Below, in pieces: positions 11,251 to 26,965 of a DNA stretch of 28,432 nt (positions are counted from its first letter, which is position 1; every line of letters starts with the position of its first letter). The stretch spans positions 1 to 28,432 of IMG/VR virus record IMGVR_UViG_3300046355_000226; one strand, written 5' to 3'. This DNA comes from a virus. The position numbers and the translations under genes are program-made. The notes beneath the pieces are model-generated. The model did no database searches. It saw nothing but the letters and a program-made list of their open reading frames with translations, and was not told the DNA's origin.

Positions 11251-11327
11251 AACATCTTTTTTTTATTGCACCAAAAAGCACATCATTTTATATAATATAC
11301 ACAAAAACTTTTACTTATCCAAAAAAA
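11251..11327 (-). promoter_or_regulatory. Short AT-rich gap upstream of the LEATQQ-repeat gene
   Basis: 77 bases between the 739-aa gene and the structural gene. On the minus strand it reads GTGTATATTATATAAAATG with a T-rich leader, so a promoter is plausible, but no full TAnnTTTG box is present. A single TTGCACC half-site (11266-11272), identical to the operator half-sites near 24619, also lies here; one 7-mer can occur by chance. Confidence 0.35.
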
Positions 11328-21392: not shown

Positions 21393-21677
21393 TCAATAAA
21401 TCCCAATAATGTGAGATTCCTGAGCAACAAATTTAATTTTTCCATCAATCTCTACAGTGTCACAATAAGACAACTGACGAGGTGTGATTAAAACTTCATC
21501 TGCAGCTTTACAGAAAGTAACATCTTCTCCTACAGCATGCACTTTAAGACGCGTGTAGTGTTTTACTAAATCTGCTTCCATTGAAGCTTGTGCATCCGGA
21601 CTTAATTCTAATCCTTTAATTTTTGATTCATAAGTTGGTTTGTCCAACAATACAATCTTACCTTGCCATTTTTGCAT
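21393..21677 (-). CDS. Small beta-barrel protein, GroES-like candidate
   Basis: 94 aa. An N-terminal strand (WQGKIVLLDKPTY), then a loop region with acidic residues, then RLKVHAVGEDVTFCKAADEVLITPRQ, with the V-x-AVGxDV...K..DEVLI pattern typical of the GroES barrel, and an end VAQESHIIGIY like the 'E.DIlAi' strand. Many phages encode a co-chaperonin that helps fold capsid proteins. The mobile-loop region (residues 15-40) is longer and more helical than usual, so the match is suggestive only. Last gene of the operon, 10 bp after the preceding gene. Confidence 0.55.
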   Translation of the reverse strand: MQKWQGKIVLLDKPTYESKIKGLELSPDAQASMEADLVKHYTRLKVHAVGEDVTFCKAADEVLITPRQLSYCDTVEIDGKIKFVAQESHIIGIY

Positions 21678-21687
21678 AACTTTTTTT

Positions 21688-22002
21688 TTAAAATAATTTG
21701 TGTTGAATGTGGCGAGCTATAACTTCACCATTCTCTTTAATTTCTACTATTTCTGCATTTTCAACAGCAGTCAATGCTTCTGCTATAGAATAAGTTCCAT
21801 CCTGATTGCGTTGTTGTGTTGTAACTTGGACTATTACTGAACGCCCAGCTTGCATTGCTTTTGTTGACTTCATCCATCCTTCTGATTCAGAAGAAGCTTT
21901 AGAAATAAGTTTGAACGTGTCGCCATCTCCCCAAAACTTAATATCCTTGACATTTTTTCTAGCACCGTTGGCTGTGGTGTTGTGTAATGATTTTTCTTCC
22001 AT
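21688..22002 (-). CDS. Conserved phage protein of unknown function (FWGDGDTFKLISKAS type)
   Basis: 104 aa. It opens with SLHNTTANGARKNVKDIKFWGDGD, then SESEGWMKSTKAMQAGRSVIVQVTTQQRN and a C-terminal ENAEIVEIKENGEVI. The beta-strand alternation and the WMKSTKAM segment resemble a small, widely conserved phage protein without assigned role. It is coupled to the Acb2-like gene by a TAATG junction and lies 10 bp before the GroES-like gene. No catalytic residues are visible. Function unknown. Confidence 0.7.
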   Translation of the reverse strand: MEEKSLHNTTANGARKNVKDIKFWGDGDTFKLISKASSESEGWMKSTKAMQAGRSVIVQVTTQQRNQDGTYSIAEALTAVENAEIVEIKENGEVIARHIQHKLF

Positions 22003-22244
22003 TATTTCAAACCCTTAGCGATTCCTTTTACTCCGTACATCTGCGCTGTTTCCAATTCAGTCATTGCCAAAGCAAAAACACGTTTAGCTTCAGGATCAGT
22101 TGTTGCATTTGATTCATTGTTCATGTAATCAATAGCATCAGCCATCATACGTTTAAATGTTCCAATCTTATCATCTGCTGATGGATTGAATCCAATGTGA
22201 CATCTTTTTTCTCCAAGTGTCATTTCTCTTTCTGTGTTTTCCAT
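22002..22244 (-). CDS. Acb2-like protein: candidate anti-CBASS cyclic-nucleotide sponge
   Basis: 80 aa. It shows the pattern of the phage Acb2 (anti-CBASS 2; T4 Vs.4) family: an N-terminal charged stretch, then CHIGFNPSADDKIGTFKRMM (conserved FNPS turn with an adjoining helix) and a second helix KRVFALAMTELETAQMYGVKG (the A-x-T-x-LE-x-A-x-M-x-x-V/KA pattern). Known Acb2 proteins assemble into hexamers and bind cyclic di- and trinucleotides so that CBASS effectors are not activated. The match is by eye; the binding residues cannot be mapped here. It is in the operon led by the winged-helix regulator, coupled to the following gene. Alternative: a fold relative without sponge activity. Confidence 0.6.
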   Translation of the reverse strand: MENTEREMTLGEKRCHIGFNPSADDKIGTFKRMMADAIDYMNNESNATTDPEAKRVFALAMTELETAQMYGVKGIAKGLK

Positions 22245-22256
22245 TGTGTTGGTTTA

Positions 22257-22400
22257 TTAAAATTTACTAATTGCTACTCCAATTGCATATCCTACAAAAA
22301 TTAAGATCATTGCAATGATTGAAACTGATACAGCAGCCATAGAGAACTCATAGTTCTCCTGGCCTTTGTAATCATATTTCTTTTTATCCTCTTGCGACAT
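22257..22400 (-). CDS. 47-aa single-pass membrane protein
   Basis: 47 aa; below the size of a usual ORF call. A charged, Tyr-rich N-terminus (MSQEDKKKYDYKGQENYEFS) is followed by one membrane helix (VSIIAMILIFVGYAIGVAI). It starts 17 bases inside the end of the 195-aa gene and ends 12 bases before the Acb2-like ATG, so it is most likely a translated member of the operon. Small membrane proteins next to defence-related genes are sometimes superinfection or effector proteins, but nothing in the sequence decides this. Confidence 0.6.
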   Translation of the reverse strand: MSQEDKKKYDYKGQENYEFSMAAVSVSIIAMILIFVGYAIGVAISKF

Positions 22401-22971
22401 TTTCCAAACGGTTTAAAACATCTTGTGCCGTATGACCATCATACGGAAACTTCACAATCTCTTCTTCTGGACATTGGAATAAATCCCAGTCCTCCATTTT
22501 GTAGTGATTGGACACTTGACCTGTAGGAAGAACAGCCATCACGATAAACCAACCGCCTCCAAAACATTCCATGCCGTCATTGTGACGTTTTGATTTATGC
22601 ACATTGTACAATCCATCTTTAGTCCATGCATTAAATGCAGCAGCATTGTACATTTTTCTAAAGTTATACAACTCATCAAAAGTATGGTAGCCGTCAGACA
22701 AAGTACCAATTTGATCTTCAGAAATGTAAGTCTTTTCAAAAATATCTGGCTTGCATGGATAGAACTCACCATTAACACCTTTGATAATAAAATCACCAAG
22801 TGACGCTGTCATTACACCTTCAAGTGTAGGAATCTCAATTTTTGGTTCACCTGATGTATGTAATACAGATTGTTTACCCTGCATGAATTCTGCAATCTTG
22901 TCTACTGTTTCTAAACTTGCATCTTTAAATTGAACTGCTTCAATAGCAACTGTTTTTTTGATGTACTTCAT
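22384..22971 (-). CDS. Two-domain phage protein of unknown function
   Basis: 195 aa. Residues 1-85 contain a beta-rich domain with GDFIIKGVNGEFYPCKPDIF (a recurrent phage segment, usually a stand-alone protein), and residues 90-195 a second domain with AAFNAWTKDGLYNVHKS, KRHNDGMECFGGGWFIVMA and a Trp-Asp-Leu end. Each half resembles separate small phage proteins; here they are one chain. No known active site. First-named function none. The stop overlaps the 47-aa gene by 17 bases, and the start is 1 base after the 34-aa gene's stop. Confidence 0.7.
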   Translation of the reverse strand: MKYIKKTVAIEAVQFKDASLETVDKIAEFMQGKQSVLHTSGEPKIEIPTLEGVMTASLGDFIIKGVNGEFYPCKPDIFEKTYISEDQIGTLSDGYHTFDELYNFRKMYNAAAFNAWTKDGLYNVHKSKRHNDGMECFGGGWFIVMAVLPTGQVSNHYKMEDWDLFQCPEEEIVKFPYDGHTAQDVLNRLENVARG

Positions 22972-22972
22972 C

Positions 22973-23077
22973 TTAATTCTCTTTAATTTTGTCCATTACA
23001 TACTCTGCAGCATAAATTAATCCTACTGCTACTAAAATCCCAAGGCATGTGCCTGTTGCAACTGTTAAAATAGTCAT
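22973..23077 (-). CDS. 34-aa membrane mini-protein
   Basis: 34 aa: MTILTVATGTCLGILVAVGL, then IYAAEYVMDKIKEN. One hydrophobic helix (about residues 3-23) with a short charged tail. It fits exactly between the DUF1599 gene (1-base gap) and the 195-aa gene (1-base gap), and no other feature is there, which supports translation. Function unknown; the size and helix suit a small membrane modulator. Confidence 0.55.
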   Translation of the reverse strand: MTILTVATGTCLGILVAVGLIYAAEYVMDKIKEN

Positions 23078-23078
23078 G

Positions 23079-23435
23079 TTATTTGTTTTTTTGGTTAATA
23101 TACGATTTCAAAATTGCCAAGTAATTGATAGCATCCTCAATTGTGTCTGTGATTGCTTCATCTTTTACCATGGCTTCTTTATCCAACAAAGTGGATATAC
23201 GAGACATCTTGTCCATTAAACGAACTAAGATGCCTCTTTCTACGGTAACACCTGCTATTGTTGCATTTTCAAAATTTGCAAATGGGTTTCTGATAGTTCC
23301 CCCGTAGTCATTGTTTTTTTTAACGGCTACTTTCATGCAGTTATCAAATGTTTGTACCATATCCTGTAATAAAGGATTGTTCATAATATCCGAATCTTCT
23401 GGTGAAACACAACGGTCTCTCTCTACTTGTTCCAT
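23079..23435 (-). CDS. DUF1599 protein (nucleotide-modification associated domain 1)
   Basis: 118 aa. It contains the family pattern KKNNDYGGTIRNPFANFEN, then GILVRLMDKMSRISTLL (Arg/Asp-Lys set of the helical MazG-like fold) and AITDTIEDAINYLAILK (Asp-Thr pair). DUF1599 proteins belong to the all-alpha NTP-pyrophosphatase-like group and are often encoded near DNA base-modifying or dNTP genes; the exact reaction is not established. Here there is no recognisable thymidylate- or hydroxymethyltransferase in the window. Zero-gap neighbour of the SegE-like gene (23436), in the ten-gene operon. Confidence 0.75.
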   Translation of the reverse strand: MEQVERDRCVSPEDSDIMNNPLLQDMVQTFDNCMKVAVKKNNDYGGTIRNPFANFENATIAGVTVERGILVRLMDKMSRISTLLDKEAMVKDEAITDTIEDAINYLAILKSYINQKNK

Positions 23436-23873
23436 TTATTTTTGTTTATAAAATTTACCTAATATGTTGCCATTCAAAAACTCATCACTTTCAAGCACAC
23501 CCAATGTAAACTGGTACTTGCACTCAAAATAAGACAATTCTTGTTTGCCAAAGCAGATGTGTAAGATTTCTCTTCTAATCAACACGCCATCTTTTTTGGC
23601 TTGCTTTAATGTTTCATTACTACTATAGTAGTTTTGATATGTAGACTTACGCACACGCTTGTAAGTTTTAAGCCTTTTGTCTGTAGGAAGATCCTTCTTT
23701 GCCAATTTGGTTTTCACATCAGCATAGAAATTCTTTTTTCCAATATAGCGAACAGCCTTGCCATCAATGATCGCCATCATCTCATAAACAAATCCAACAG
23801 CTCCTTCCGGAATCATGTCTTCAGTAAATTCTTTTCCATCAAGTATCCACATATCAATATTTATTTTTGGCAC
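23436..23873 (-). CDS. SegE-like GIY-YIG endonuclease-like protein
   Basis: 145 aa. The N-terminal region has the GIY-like strand GFVYEMMAIIDGKAVRYIGKK (about 27-47), where Y-I-G matches the YIG part, followed by a basic helical stretch and YYSSNETLKQAKK (about 82-94), then RREILHICFGKQELSYFE with the conserved Arg and Glu of the family, and a C-terminal end FLNGNILGKF. This matches the SegE-type branch. SegE in T4 is a homing-type nuclease, but such proteins in phage genomes may be domesticated. Its place inside an operon (0 gap to the DUF1599 gene) argues against a simple free-standing homing element. It overlaps the next-upstream gene by 20 bases. Confidence 0.75.
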   Translation of the reverse strand: MPKINIDMWILDGKEFTEDMIPEGAVGFVYEMMAIIDGKAVRYIGKKNFYADVKTKLAKKDLPTDKRLKTYKRVRKSTYQNYYSSNETLKQAKKDGVLIRREILHICFGKQELSYFECKYQFTLGVLESDEFLNGNILGKFYKQK

Positions 23874-24099
23874 GCTTATTATAATTCTTTGTTTGGAGAC
23901 TCTTGCCGTTCTCCTTTATGTTTTTTACCTCAGCTTCTTTCCTGTGGTTGATAATTTCTTGTTTCAAAGAACCAATGATTCTGTGATTTTTAAATTTGTA
24001 GTATTCTGGAGTCAACTGATCAATACTAATTCCAATGCAAAAGGTTACTCTGTAAAACTTTACTCTTAACCCATTAATGATTCTTACAAAACTTATCAT
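23854..24099 (-). CDS. 81-aa basic protein of unknown function
   Basis: 81 aa, basic (many Lys, Arg, Asn). Strand-like N-terminal half (RVKFYRVTFCIGISIDQLT) and a helical, Lys-rich C-terminal half (EIINHRKEAEVKNIKENGK). It starts 6 bases downstream of the RepL-like gene and overlaps the SegE-like start by 20 bases, a compact arrangement that supports a real gene. No family recognised. A nucleic-acid-binding role would suit the charge but is not shown. Confidence 0.6.
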   Translation of the reverse strand: MISFVRIINGLRVKFYRVTFCIGISIDQLTPEYYKFKNHRIIGSLKQEIINHRKEAEVKNIKENGKSLQTKNYNKRAKNKY

Positions 24100-24104
24100 G
24101 ATCT

Positions 24105-24590
24105 TTATTCATTAATACCTAGTCTGTCAAAATAACCAAGACATGTTTTGTCAATGGTTTTTCTTTTGCGCGCCAAGTTAGGGTTCAACATAATGTACTT
24201 GCACTCCTTACCATCAATTACTGTATGAATGTAACTGATCACACTCTTCTTGTACAAACGCTTCATGAAGTCAGCATACTTGTTACGCGTATACTTTAAC
24301 TCAGCCATAAGTGTTGCGTCTGTGTGTGGAAATTTACGATCCTGGTACAAGATGTTGAAAGTACCATTTGTCATATCAGCCATTTTTAAAATGCGACCAT
24401 AATCAACATGACTGAAATTTGTAAGAATGTATTGAAGTGCATGACTGTCAATTATAACATATTCATTGCTGCTAACAATCACTAAATTTTCATCCTTGAT
24501 ATTGACTGTGGTTTCTGGAGAAAACATCTCCCCAGTTTCCATGTCTACCAAATTAGACATCTTCTTTTTAGTTACTACCGGTTTTGTCAT
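24105..24590 (-). CDS. RepL-like winged-helix protein: replication initiator or regulator
   Basis: 161 aa. Read by eye it matches the RepL plan: an N-terminal D-x-ETGE turn (LVDMETGEMF, residues 15-24), a winged-helix region in the middle (LMAELKYTRNKYADFMKRL, then a wing SYIHTVIDGKECKYIMLNP), and the C-terminal LNPxL ... xFxxL end. RepL proteins initiate replication of phage-plasmids and small plasmids. Alternative: a wHTH repressor. It is the first gene of a ten-gene operon. Its promoter (24595-24602) and three dyad operators (24619-24700) lie immediately upstream, so self-regulation or origin binding are both attractive explanations. Confidence 0.6.
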   Translation of the reverse strand: MTKPVVTKKKMSNLVDMETGEMFSPETTVNIKDENLVIVSSNEYVIIDSHALQYILTNFSHVDYGRILKMADMTNGTFNILYQDRKFPHTDATLMAELKYTRNKYADFMKRLYKKSVISYIHTVIDGKECKYIMLNPNLARKRKTIDKTCLGYFDRLGINE

Positions 24591-24594
24591 GAAA

Positions 24595-24602
24595 CAAAGG
24601 TA
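24595..24602 (-). promoter_or_regulatory. TACCTTTG -7 box of the RepL-like operon
   Basis: Minus-strand TACCTTTG, an exact match to TAnnTTTG, only 4 bases upstream of the ATG at 24590, so the mRNA would be nearly leaderless. The first of the three operator dyads begins 16 bases beyond it and covers the -33 region, so a protein bound there would block the promoter. Confidence 0.6.
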
Positions 24603-24618
24603 GCATAATTATTCAAAC

Positions 24619-24700
24619 TTGCACCATTTTAGGTGCAAAAAATGCGTTTTTTCTTGATTTTTGCACCTTTTTGGGTGCATGTGAACCTTATAAGGTGCTC
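24619..24700. promoter_or_regulatory. Three operator-like dyads TTGCACC-N6-GGTGCAA on one DNA face
   Basis: Dyad 1 (24619-24638) is perfect: TTGCACC, 6 bases, GGTGCAA. Dyad 2 (24661-24680) has the same halves and same 6-base spacer with one mismatch. Dyad 3 (24681-24700) is weaker (5 of 7 per half). The centres are at 24628.5, 24670.5 and 24690.5; the distances of 42 and 20 bases are near whole turns of the helix (4 and 2), so three bound dimers would face the same way. The set lies in the gap between the RepL-like gene and the 46-aa gene. Candidate site for the wHTH protein; could also be an origin. The binding protein is not proven. Confidence 0.7.
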
Positions 24701-24722: not shown

Positions 24723-24746
24723 CCCCCTATATTATATATTAGGGGG
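24723..24746. other. CCCCCTA/TAGGGGG hairpin after the 46-aa gene
   Basis: 7-bp stem of CCCCCTA and TAGGGGG with a 10-base AT loop, just downstream of the stop of the 46-aa gene (24752). It lacks a T-tract on the minus strand, so an ordinary terminator is not certain. It might be a transcription boundary or a protein site beside the operator cluster. Confidence 0.5.
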
Positions 24747-24751
24747 ATATA

Positions 24752-24892
24752 CTACCTGCCTTGTCCTGCGTATGCTTTTTTGTAGTTTTTACTACTCTTA
24801 GACTTAGATGTCTTAGTCTTTGAGTGTACACCTGGACGGGATACTTTAGGAGAAACTATCTTCCCTAAAGCGTTTGTGTTTATTTTTGCCAT
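24752..24892 (-). CDS. 46-aa very basic protein (RPGVHSKTKTSKSK type)
   Basis: 46 aa: MAKINTNALGKIVSPKVS, RPGVHSKTKTSKSKSSK, NYKKAYAGQGR. Extremely Lys/Ser-rich. The RPGVHSK and YKKxYxGQG endings are familiar from very small basic proteins in Bacteroidota and their phages, with no known function. A TATATTTG box 22 bases upstream supports its expression as an independent unit. A nucleic-acid or ribosome-associated role is a guess from charge only. Confidence 0.7.
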   Translation of the reverse strand: MAKINTNALGKIVSPKVSRPGVHSKTKTSKSKSSKNYKKAYAGQGR

Positions 24893-24923: not shown

Positions 24924-25406
24924 TTAATTCCAATTCTTGTTATATCGTTCCCAGTAAAATTCTGGCATTCGGTCTATGTATTCCCCAACAAAGTCAGACT
25001 TGAATACACTAGTTTCCATTTCCAGCAATGCTACAGTGATAATATCTTCACTTTTGTAACCATACTCCAACAATGTTTCTTTGATCCACGTATAGTTTTT
25101 TCCAGAGAGAACAGCAGCTTCACAAAGCACAACCTTATTGTATTTTGGAATACGTTCTTCAAACTCTTTTTTAAACTTGTGCAGATATGGCTCTTTAGAC
25201 TCACCGGGATAAGGCACATCTAACTCAAACAAATCTAACATTTTACCATGATCAGAAAGATAATGAGCAATTTGCATTGCCACAGTAGATGAGTAATCAG
25301 GAGAGACGTTAATAACTAATGTTCGGTAAGGATCCACATTAGGTAGTTTTTGCATTAAACTTTGCAGCAAACTATATTCTTTTAAATGATCTATGTATAT
25401 ATCCAT
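24924..25406 (-). CDS. Phosphoribosyltransferase-like protein
   Basis: 160 aa. Alternating strands and helices in Rossmann style: RTLVINVSPDYSSTVAMQIAH (about 28-48), then KVVLCEAAVLSGKNYTWIKE (about 91-110), where VVLCEAAVLSGKNY sits in the place of the PRPP-binding loop of type I phosphoribosyltransferases (usually VLVDDVxxTGxT), then ALLEMETSVFKSDFVGEYID, like the flexible-loop and C-terminal part of the fold. The loop is not canonical (no double-Asp), so nucleotide-binding without catalysis is possible. A TATATTTG box is placed 5 bases upstream of the ATG (25406). Moderate confidence in family. Confidence 0.55.
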   Translation of the reverse strand: MDIYIDHLKEYSLLQSLMQKLPNVDPYRTLVINVSPDYSSTVAMQIAHYLSDHGKMLDLFELDVPYPGESKEPYLHKFKKEFEERIPKYNKVVLCEAAVLSGKNYTWIKETLLEYGYKSEDIITVALLEMETSVFKSDFVGEYIDRMPEFYWERYNKNWN

Positions 25407-25511: not shown

Positions 25512-25991
25512 CTATAGAAAAAGCGTATATATTTTTTCAACTATGTGTGAATGAAAATATGCTTCAGCTTCCTTTTCCACATCTCTATTTAGAAACTTAG
25601 GTAAGAATTCTTGACACAGGTGCAGCACTTCATGACATAGCGTAGTCATATTACTTGGATCAGTTGGATCAAATCCATACTTGAGAATGATCATTCTAAA
25701 CATAGATCTGGGATAAGTTTTAAGTTCCTCCCATGCGTACATTCCATGACCAGCAGATTCACCATCTTTATCCATTCCGGCTAAATCTTCTCTACAATCC
25801 TCTATTTGCTCAATAATCTCATTGAACCATGCAAAATGCTTTTTGATTTTTTTAAGATTGTTGCTTTCAGGATTGCTATTATTTTCTTTGAACCACTCAA
25901 TTACCTCATCTGCGTTGTAACCACACACTACAATCACTCTGTCATTTCCGTAAGGCTGTAATTCTACGGTGTCAATTACACATACACTCAT
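25512..25991 (-). CDS. Zinc metallopeptidase-like phage protein (HEVLH)
   Basis: 159 aa. The C-terminal third has TLCHEVLHLCQEFLPKF (HExxH at 119-123: His119, Glu120, His123) and a downstream acidic helix NRDVEKEAEAYFHSHIVEK (Glu in the third-ligand position). This is the layout of small zincin-like phage proteins of unknown substrate. The N-terminus is a beta-type domain (VELQPYGNDRVIVVCGYN). The ATG overlaps the preceding stop by 4 bases (ATGA). Whether it is an active protease is not shown. Confidence 0.65.
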   Translation of the reverse strand: MSVCVIDTVELQPYGNDRVIVVCGYNADEVIEWFKENNSNPESNNLKKIKKHFAWFNEIIEQIEDCREDLAGMDKDGESAGHGMYAWEELKTYPRSMFRMIILKYGFDPTDPSNMTTLCHEVLHLCQEFLPKFLNRDVEKEAEAYFHSHIVEKIYTLFL

Positions 25992-26320
25992 TTGGTTTTT
26001 TCCATTAGATTGGTGATCATCATTTTAGTTAGCTTTTGAGTTTCTTGATCATCACTTGTTGCCATTTTGTAAAGACTGGTTAGCTTTTCTACAGTAATAA
26101 CTTTTCTCATCTTTAGGAATGTAAGCTTTCTTACAACTTCAGAGGTATCCTCAAATTTGAACACACCAGGTGAAGGAAGATTATACTTTTTACAAAAGGT
26201 ATGTACTCTTGAAAAAGCACTAATAAATTCATTGTGGGCTTGTTGCTTCCCTAGGTTAGGATCAGTGTACCAGTAATCACAGTTATCCATTGTATGTTTC
26301 AGCAGTTCAGAATATTCCAT
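25988..26320 (-). CDS. 110-aa helical protein of unknown function
   Basis: 110 aa from ATG 26320. The longer frame to 26353 is rejected because a TATATTTG box (26324-26331) lies inside its first codons. Mainly helical: EYSELLKHTMDNCDYWY, then KQQAHNEFISAFSRVHTFCK, and an end of short helices (RKVITVEKLTSLYKMATS). Cys/Tyr/Trp near the N-terminus could be a binding site but no motif is recognised. It is the last leftward gene next to the structured island, so its promoter is among the first leftward ones. It is coupled to the metallopeptidase-like gene (ATGA). Confidence 0.65.
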   Translation of the reverse strand: MEYSELLKHTMDNCDYWYTDPNLGKQQAHNEFISAFSRVHTFCKKYNLPSPGVFKFEDTSEVVRKLTFLKMRKVITVEKLTSLYKMATSDDQETQKLTKMMITNLMEKTK

Positions 26321-26331: not shown

Positions 26332-26367
26332 CAAATCTAAAACATATTACCAAAGAATAGTACAGGT

Positions 26368-26412
26368 AAAAACCCCTAGTAGTTTCTGTTGATCAAGCAG
26401 GCTTGCTAGGGG
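26368..26412 (-). terminator. Terminator-like hairpin at the left border of the structured island
   Basis: On the minus strand, stem CCCCTAG/CTAGGGG (26373-26379 with 26406-26412) followed by five T residues (26368-26372). No gene lies upstream on the minus strand, so it would stop transcripts from the gene-free island before the leftward gene at 26320, which implies a non-coding transcript there. The loop of 26 bases is long, so confidence is moderate. Confidence 0.5.
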
Positions 26413-26907
26413 GGTGTTAATGGTTATAAGTCCATTCAGAGAGGCAACGTCTTGCACCAAAGAATTGGTTGCTATTTCCCAGTAACGAGAAGACCAGAGG
26501 CTGGTGCGCAGTGCTTATGAGATGCGTCCCTGGTTCTATAGCCTATGTAATGAAATACACAGGGGGGTACACAAATGTAAAAACATTTACACAAACAACA
26601 ATACCATCCACTGGGTAAATTGGATTTCTTGTGTATAAGGGTGTGAGAGAGTCCCACTGCTTCGCAGCCCCCCACCCTTCGGGTTTGGGTGGGTACCCCC
26701 TGGTCAAAAAAGTCTGTCAACTTTTTTTCCCAAGGGTTTTTGGGAGTTTTTTTCACAGGGAGAGGGTGCTTGCACAGCACTCTGCTCGTGAATCATCTGG
26801 ACCAGAGCAAGGGGAGGGAGGGAGCAAGGAGATGACATCTGCAAGCAGGGTGTCTTCAAAGAAAGTCTACATAGTATAATGGTTTGATATAGATGACCTG
26901 ACAAAGA
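26413..26907. other. Gene-free, GC-rich, highly structured island at the transcription divide
   Basis: About 500 bases with no credible gene. Several parts: nested stem GGCT...AGCC and GCGCA...TGCGT (26499-26543); hairpin AAATGT/ACATTT at about 26574-26589; CCCACCC/GGGTGGG (26671-26677 with 26687-26693) inside a stretch (26641-26700) of 67% GC by count, far above the surrounding AT-rich DNA; an A/T-tract stem (AAAAAAGT/ACTTTTTT, 26706-26727) and three nearby T-tracts; stem AGGGTGC/GCACTCT (about 26764-26784); a G-rich GGGGAGGGAGGG run (26811-26822). It marks the switch between leftward and rightward genes. Candidates: origin of replication, structured non-coding RNA or a packaging site. No known RNA was recognised. 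Confidence 0.65.
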
Positions 26908-26941
26908 ACCTCATACATAAACTAAAATCACAAGTGATTTT
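26908..26941 (+). repeat. Shared leader element, copy 1: ACCTCATACATAAA plus covarying hairpin
   Basis: ACCTCATACATAAA (26908-26921) is followed by hairpin AAAATCAC-AA-GTGATTTT (26924-26941), 24 bases before the first plus-strand ATG. The same motif and hairpin occur at 27801-27833. The paired change in the stem (T-A here, A-T there) favours a conserved structure. Promoter, attenuator or terminator are all possible. Confidence 0.65.
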
Positions 26942-26965
26942 TATTAACCCTTTAAACTCATTGTT

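Follow-up and report, generated by a model that had tools for sequence, protein, structure and literature searches.

Introduction

At the OR and OL operators of phage lambda (CI/Cro), near-symmetrical sites of 17-20 bp are repeated approximately whole helical turns apart over a promoter, at a distance of about 24 bp, and lie beside the gene of a DNA-binding protein with the lambda-repressor fold. MarR-type winged-helix regulators have a palindromic operator that overlaps their own promoter. In the iteron origins of the RepL (PF05732) and RepA_N plasmid initiators, repeated sites and an AT-rich element are found beside the gene of the initiator, in which a winged helix is followed by an (L/I)NPxL stretch. 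Among the crAss-like phages, two repL genes have been reported in p-crAssphage (PMC10136315, PMC7551546), and a review, which calls the replication mode of these phages unknown, ties skew inversion in their genomes to replichores (PMC10136315). No described operator or replication origin of a crAss-like phage was found in the literature searched.

In the present study, we analyzed IMG/VR virus record IMGVR_UViG_3300046355_000226, the entire 28.4-kb sequence of which (28,432 nt) is referred to as the window. The window contains crAss-type TerL (phrog_6681) and portal (phrog_6547) genes, and a tblastn search with TerL revealed Crassvirales and Flavobacterium Fpv phages at 23-26% identity; judging from these two genes, the phage appears to fall among or beside the crAss-like phages, either as a distant member or as a sister group. 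A locus in the window was found to be similar to lambda OR and OL, in that near-symmetrical dyads of comparable length are repeated about whole turns apart over a promoter, beside the gene of a candidate DNA-binding protein. As at OR, at least two copies of one dyad overlap the promoter, and the spacing is near whole turns, with the related loci L036 (64 bp) and L009 (23 bp) as exceptions. In contrast to lambda, the locus has a single promoter, which is predicted to be leaderless and carries a Bacteroidota -7 box, its sites are 42 or 54 bp apart, the candidate protein is a winged helix whose binding is predicted, and neither an integrase nor a second, opposing repressor was seen.

Results and discussion

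Dyads upstream of the first gene

The features of the locus are collected in Table 1. The proximal dyad D1 and the distal dyad D2 share the core TGCACC-N6-GGTGCA, their centers are 42 bp apart, and they are located at -48 to -29 and -90 to -71, respectively, relative to the start of the first gene. An earlier note on this DNA had described three copies with identical 6-base spacers. Two strong copies, D1 and D2, were confirmed, but D3, which reads GAGCACC-TTATAA-GGTTCAC on the operon strand, deviates at 4 of 14 positions and had no counterpart at the same place in the relatives compared; likewise, the spacers are equal in length (6 bases) but differ in sequence. The half-sites reported as isolated at 11266 and 26453 are in fact two of many, as the window contains 17 exact copies of TTGCACC versus 4.6 expected. 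Nearly all of them are on the plus strand, opposite minus-strand genes, and most are therefore read as codon usage. A search of the window alone for dyads with up to three mismatches found 2 versus 1.25 expected, which is unremarkable; the significance of the feature thus lies in the two near-perfect adjoining copies and in their conservation.

Table 1. Features of the dyad locus in the window and dyad arrangement in related loci.
Feature	Position or loci	Strand	Description
Following putative-operon genes	21393-24099	-	81 aa; GIY-YIG endonuclease; 118 aa; WDGH-domain protein; Acb2/Tad1-hairpin protein; 104 aa; 94 aa
First gene	24105-24590	-	161-aa predicted winged-helix protein, candidate dyad binder; ATG at 24588-24590
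-7 box	24595-24602	-	TACCTTTG (TAnnTTTG), Bacteroidota type; -12 to -5 from A of ATG
D1, proximal dyad	24619-24638	.	TTGCACC-ATTTTA-GGTGCAA, perfect; kept in relatives
D2, distal dyad	24661-24680	.	TTGCACC-TTTTTG-GGTGCAT, one outer mismatch of 14; kept in relatives
D3, degenerate third dyad	24681-24700	.	Doubtful; 10/14 bases matching
Element E	24725-24742	-	Contains TAATATAG (24727-24734) and GG
Group A	Window, L001-L008, L013		Two dyads, 42 bp apart (43 in L006)
Other loci	L034, L056, L077, L080		Dyad spacing also 42 bp
Half-site	L077, L080		Between the two dyads (22 + 20)
Group B	L009-L012		Three dyads, 54 + 32 to 34 bp
Group B exception	L009		54 + 23 bp; dyads degenerate
Distant locus	L036		Spacing 64 bp; distal dyad degenerate

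Conservation among relatives

An IMG/VR scan with the window protein revealed 13 relatives with 66-74% identity, and a profile to which more distant members had been added gave 20 loci in total (45-74% identity), all found by protein alone. The earlier note had regarded the dyads as specific to this phage and had proposed non-conservation in close relatives as a refutation; the search among related phages showed that 19 of the 20 loci have dyads in front of the homologous gene. When the 13 related records were searched with the 12-base core at no more than one mismatch, 28 of the 29 forward matches were at the dyad promoter, the remaining one being an imperfect match in record G005, and the reversed control pattern gave 0. 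Among six further records, five had the core at the dyad locus only, and a single match to the control pattern was seen. The exception among the 20 loci was L082, in which the protein is present in another gene context; neither dyads nor a -7 box were found within the 1.4 kb of upstream sequence present on its contig.

Four distant relatives were reached first by a DNA scan for the dyad and then independently by the protein search, so the association between dyad and gene holds in both directions. The other dyads from the DNA scan were rejected as sites of the same regulator, most of them being inside ORFs of unrelated contigs. The window protein and those of L034, L036 and L077 had no relatives in an annotated phage collection, where the L082 protein gave weak partial matches only (E 0.03 or worse). 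Relatives of the window protein were absent from the bacterial and archaeal genomes searched, and the family profile detected no homolog in Fpv20, crAss001 (first 50 kb), phi14:2 (first 50 kb) or cr124_1. The dyads, their spacing, their conservation, their overlap with the promoter region and their restriction to one locus per genome are apparent at the level of sequence, and the feature is almost certainly a genuine, conserved cis-regulatory module.

Spacing and variation of the dyads

The spacings were near whole helical turns, at 42 bp in most two-dyad members and at 54, 32-34 and 23 bp in group B. The linker between the dyads was 24 bp long in all eight representatives compared, and its similarity was often at the shuffled background (0.38 versus 0.36 for the window and L077; 0.17 versus 0.30 for L056 and L080). 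As the 42-bp spacing was kept while the linker diverged, selection appears to act on the spacing.

A comparison of 36 dyads revealed a nearly invariant CACC/GGTG core and an A/T-rich spacer. Each repeat could also form a hairpin with 6-7 bp in the stem and 6 nt in the loop, and the repeats might accordingly be RNA hairpins in a longer transcript, namely a terminator, an attenuator or sites of an RNA-binding protein. However, 12 of the arm changes break the pairing and none is compensatory, which is the pattern of a DNA-binding site and not of an RNA stem, and on this basis we rejected the RNA reading. A T-run after the repeats is absent on both strands, Rfam gave no match, and the dyads are upstream of the predicted transcript start, leaving RNA hairpins a highly improbable explanation.

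The first gene product

The first gene is present in a single copy, and searches of Pfam, PHROG and NCBIfam with its 161-aa product gave no match of meaningful score; the protein represents a new family without a Pfam or PHROG match. A first AlphaFold2 model built with close relatives only was unusable (pLDDT 46). With 16 diverse relatives, the mean pLDDT was 58 and that of the core was 70-85, and the model contained helices at residues 49-58, 61-72, 91-98 and 102-114 followed by a hairpin at 118-135, which together form a winged helix. The earlier claim of a winged-helix protein is upheld by the core, although the model is moderate overall. The top Foldseek matches were MarR-type regulators (E about 0.01), and further structural similarity was found to the RepA_N initiators 4pql, 5kbj and 4pt7 (Z 7.3-7.9) and to the ORC2 winged helix (Z 8.7); Z-scores of 7-9 are common for the winged-helix fold. 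In the viral structure library BFVD, a phage RepL (rank 18) and a replicon initiation protein were among the matches, and a PDB sequence search gave no meaningful match. Taken from a model of moderate confidence and matches to a very common fold, the assignment as a winged helix is likely.

The similarity to MarR-type regulators extends to the palindromic operator over the protein's own promoter. In contrast to these regulators, no family member matched the MarR models in Pfam and NCBIfam scans, the identity was about 8-20%, and the dimerization region is not resolved in the model. With RepL and the RepA_N initiators, the protein shares a predicted winged helix followed by an (L/I)NPxL stretch, and the earlier note had called it RepL-like. 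This was found to be a resemblance only, as PF05732 did not match the window protein (P0001), the 13 A1 members, L034, L036 or L056 at E values up to 10. The records of eight relatives contained one PF05732 protein, encoded by a separate gene in G014, and a profile comparison of this true RepL with the winged-helix family gave a weak alignment (E 0.12). Since no family member scanned matched PF05732 and the true RepL is a distinct gene, membership in RepL is unsupported. The genuine RepL is located at L105:1369-1851 (PF05732, E 1.4e-9), on the same record as the winged-helix family member of G014.

Promoter and predicted regulation

The sigma-A box TAnnTTTG of Flavobacterium psychrophilum spans positions -12 to -5 relative to the start site (PMC9723704). 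The -7 box of the window has the same position relative to the A of the ATG, and a leaderless mRNA of the first gene, starting at the ATG, is therefore predicted. The distance from the end of the box to an ATG is 3-4 nt in groups A and B. Boxes ending 3-5 nt before an ATG also precede the minus-strand genes at 24924-25406 and 25988-26320; such boxes at several genes by the divergence point suggest leaderless early transcripts, whereas genes further along have leaders of ~20-40 nt. In most members, TAnnTTTG was found 16-18 bp downstream of the proximal dyad (20 bp in L034 and 27 bp in L036), and none was found downstream of it in L056.

In L001, L012, L077 and L080, a small ORF separates the homologous gene from the dyad promoter, with dyads and promoter staying together. 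These ORFs are located before L001 3001 (225 bp), L012 996, L077 2474 and L080 2477; one type is common to L001 and L012, and another to L077 and L080.

D1 covers the -33 region of this Bacteroidota-type promoter, in agreement with the earlier note. A TTG at the usual -33 spacing was absent, and the right half of D1 occupies its place. One reading of this position is that the dyads are activator sites, at which dimers of the 161-aa protein or of another phage or host factor would bind D1, centered near -39 from the predicted start, and D2, and recruit RNA polymerase in the manner of class II plus upstream CRP-type sites. The position near -39 does resemble that of a class II activator site, which is well established for CRP. 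However, other promoters in these phages likewise have no TTG at this spacing, and we rejected the missing TTG as proof of activation. In L036, 27 bp separate the proximal dyad from the nearest -7 box. The proximal dyad of L056 is located at -21 to -4 from the ATG, ending 4 nt before it, and this position is more easily reconciled with a repressor than with an activator. We consider activation improbable.

We instead favor a repressor. Each TGCACC-(A/T-rich N6)-GGTGCA would be the site of one protein dimer, and dimers placed about whole turns apart would cooperate through direct contact or through a short DNA loop. The first gene encodes the most likely binder, and since the -33 region is covered by the proximal dyad, this protein may repress, and thereby autoregulate, its own and probably leaderless promoter. 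We infer from this arrangement binding by the first gene product, dimerization, cooperativity, and repression over activation. Conservation in cis alone is insufficient to prove that the 161-aa protein is the binder; we regard its binding to the dyads as likely. Of the classical cooperative operator described in the earlier note, the phased dyads on a promoter, their conservation in 19 of 20 loci and the kept spacing were confirmed, but the cooperativity is a prediction. Observations that speak against such an operator are the L082 protein without dyads, although the L082 contig shows no promoter there either, and the 64-bp spacing of L036 with its degenerate distal dyad.

Element E

We also noticed a second conserved element, E, which is absent from the earlier note and extends the module beyond a simple operator. 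Its AT-rich consensus, TAATATAGRG, was invariant in nearly all relatives (TAATAAAG being a variant in L034), and almost every member had it 54-55 bp upstream of its distal dyad, the distance in L056 being 77 bp. A simple operator does not account for this fixed distance. A position-weight scan of the window, G001 and G003 found no comparable second copy, and element E was rejected as a multi-copy phage promoter, being unique in the genomes examined. It was also rejected as an intrinsic terminator, since it is without a T-run and the CCCCCTA/TAGGGGG arms that flank it in the window are not conserved. A melting element or the site of a helper protein were considered as readings.

Genome context and a possible origin

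An unbroken run of minus-strand genes makes a ten-gene operon plausible, co-transcription being predicted from contiguity. An 80-aa Acb2/Tad1 hairpin protein in this run (22002-22244, minus strand; PF24729, E 2.4e-8) is a possible counter-defense sponge. Directly upstream of the module, the minus strand encodes a small basic protein of 46 aa ending in KKAYAGQGR (24752-24892), which is also found upstream in L002-L008 and L013. The neighboring 160-aa protein (24924-25406, minus strand; phrog_29004) had relatives in the phage collection only among Synechococcus cyanophages, at 35-39% identity.

Two long relatives, of 117 and 114 kb, have their genes in two diverging arms, and their dyads are no more than ~1-2 kb from the point of divergence. 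The arm that starts at the dyads in the window leads through tail fiber, endolysin, terminase and portal. The arms are separated by a non-coding stretch of ~600 bp with several inverted repeats (26360-26960, or about 26.4-26.95 kb).

This context bears on another reading, in which the module is a phage replication origin or part of one. By analogy to plasmid Rep systems or lambda O, the 161-aa protein would be a Rep-type initiator with the dyads as its iteron-like sites; the AT-rich element E would act in melting or as a helper, and autoregulation would be secondary. The winged-helix matches to RepA_N initiators, ORC2, phage RepL and a replicon initiation protein are consistent with this reading, as are the AT-rich element E at its fixed distance, beside repeated sites and the gene as in RepL/RepA_N iteron origins, and the closeness of the dyads to the arm divergence and to the cumulative GC-skew minimum, which is 1.7 kb away in the window and up to 4.8 kb away in G001 and G003. 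However, the Z-scores are in the range common for the fold, and GC skew follows gene strand here and is confounded as an origin signal. The skew minimum of the window (26375) is inside the non-coding stretch between the arms, which is nearer to it than the dyads are and is a candidate origin at least as good. In contrast to iteron origins, there are two dyads, or three in group B only, and no row of at least three directly repeated initiator sites; a TTATNCACA box (DnaA) adjoining the dyads was not found in any of 8 records. An origin at the dyads is possible, though unlikely. The operator and the origin or activator readings overlap, as an initiator may also autoregulate.

Implications for crAss-like phages

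As a kind of system, an autoregulated, phased operator is ordinary. Overall, the locus is fairly likely to be such an operator, located beside the divergence of two gene arms. At the head of the structural-gene arm, it would probably determine when or how strongly a small regulatory operon is expressed. A more far-reaching and rather doubtful proposal is that the composite module of ~140-190 bp, consisting of element E, the 54-55 bp interval, two or three phased dyads and a leaderless promoter, serves a new winged-helix initiator-regulator family that both starts replication of these crAss-like phages and turns off its own expression. The value of the locus is that of a precise, conserved control site in a phage group with little-known regulation. 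The sites and their candidate binding protein are on one fragment, and the questions of operator and origin can be reduced to less than 200 bp of DNA.
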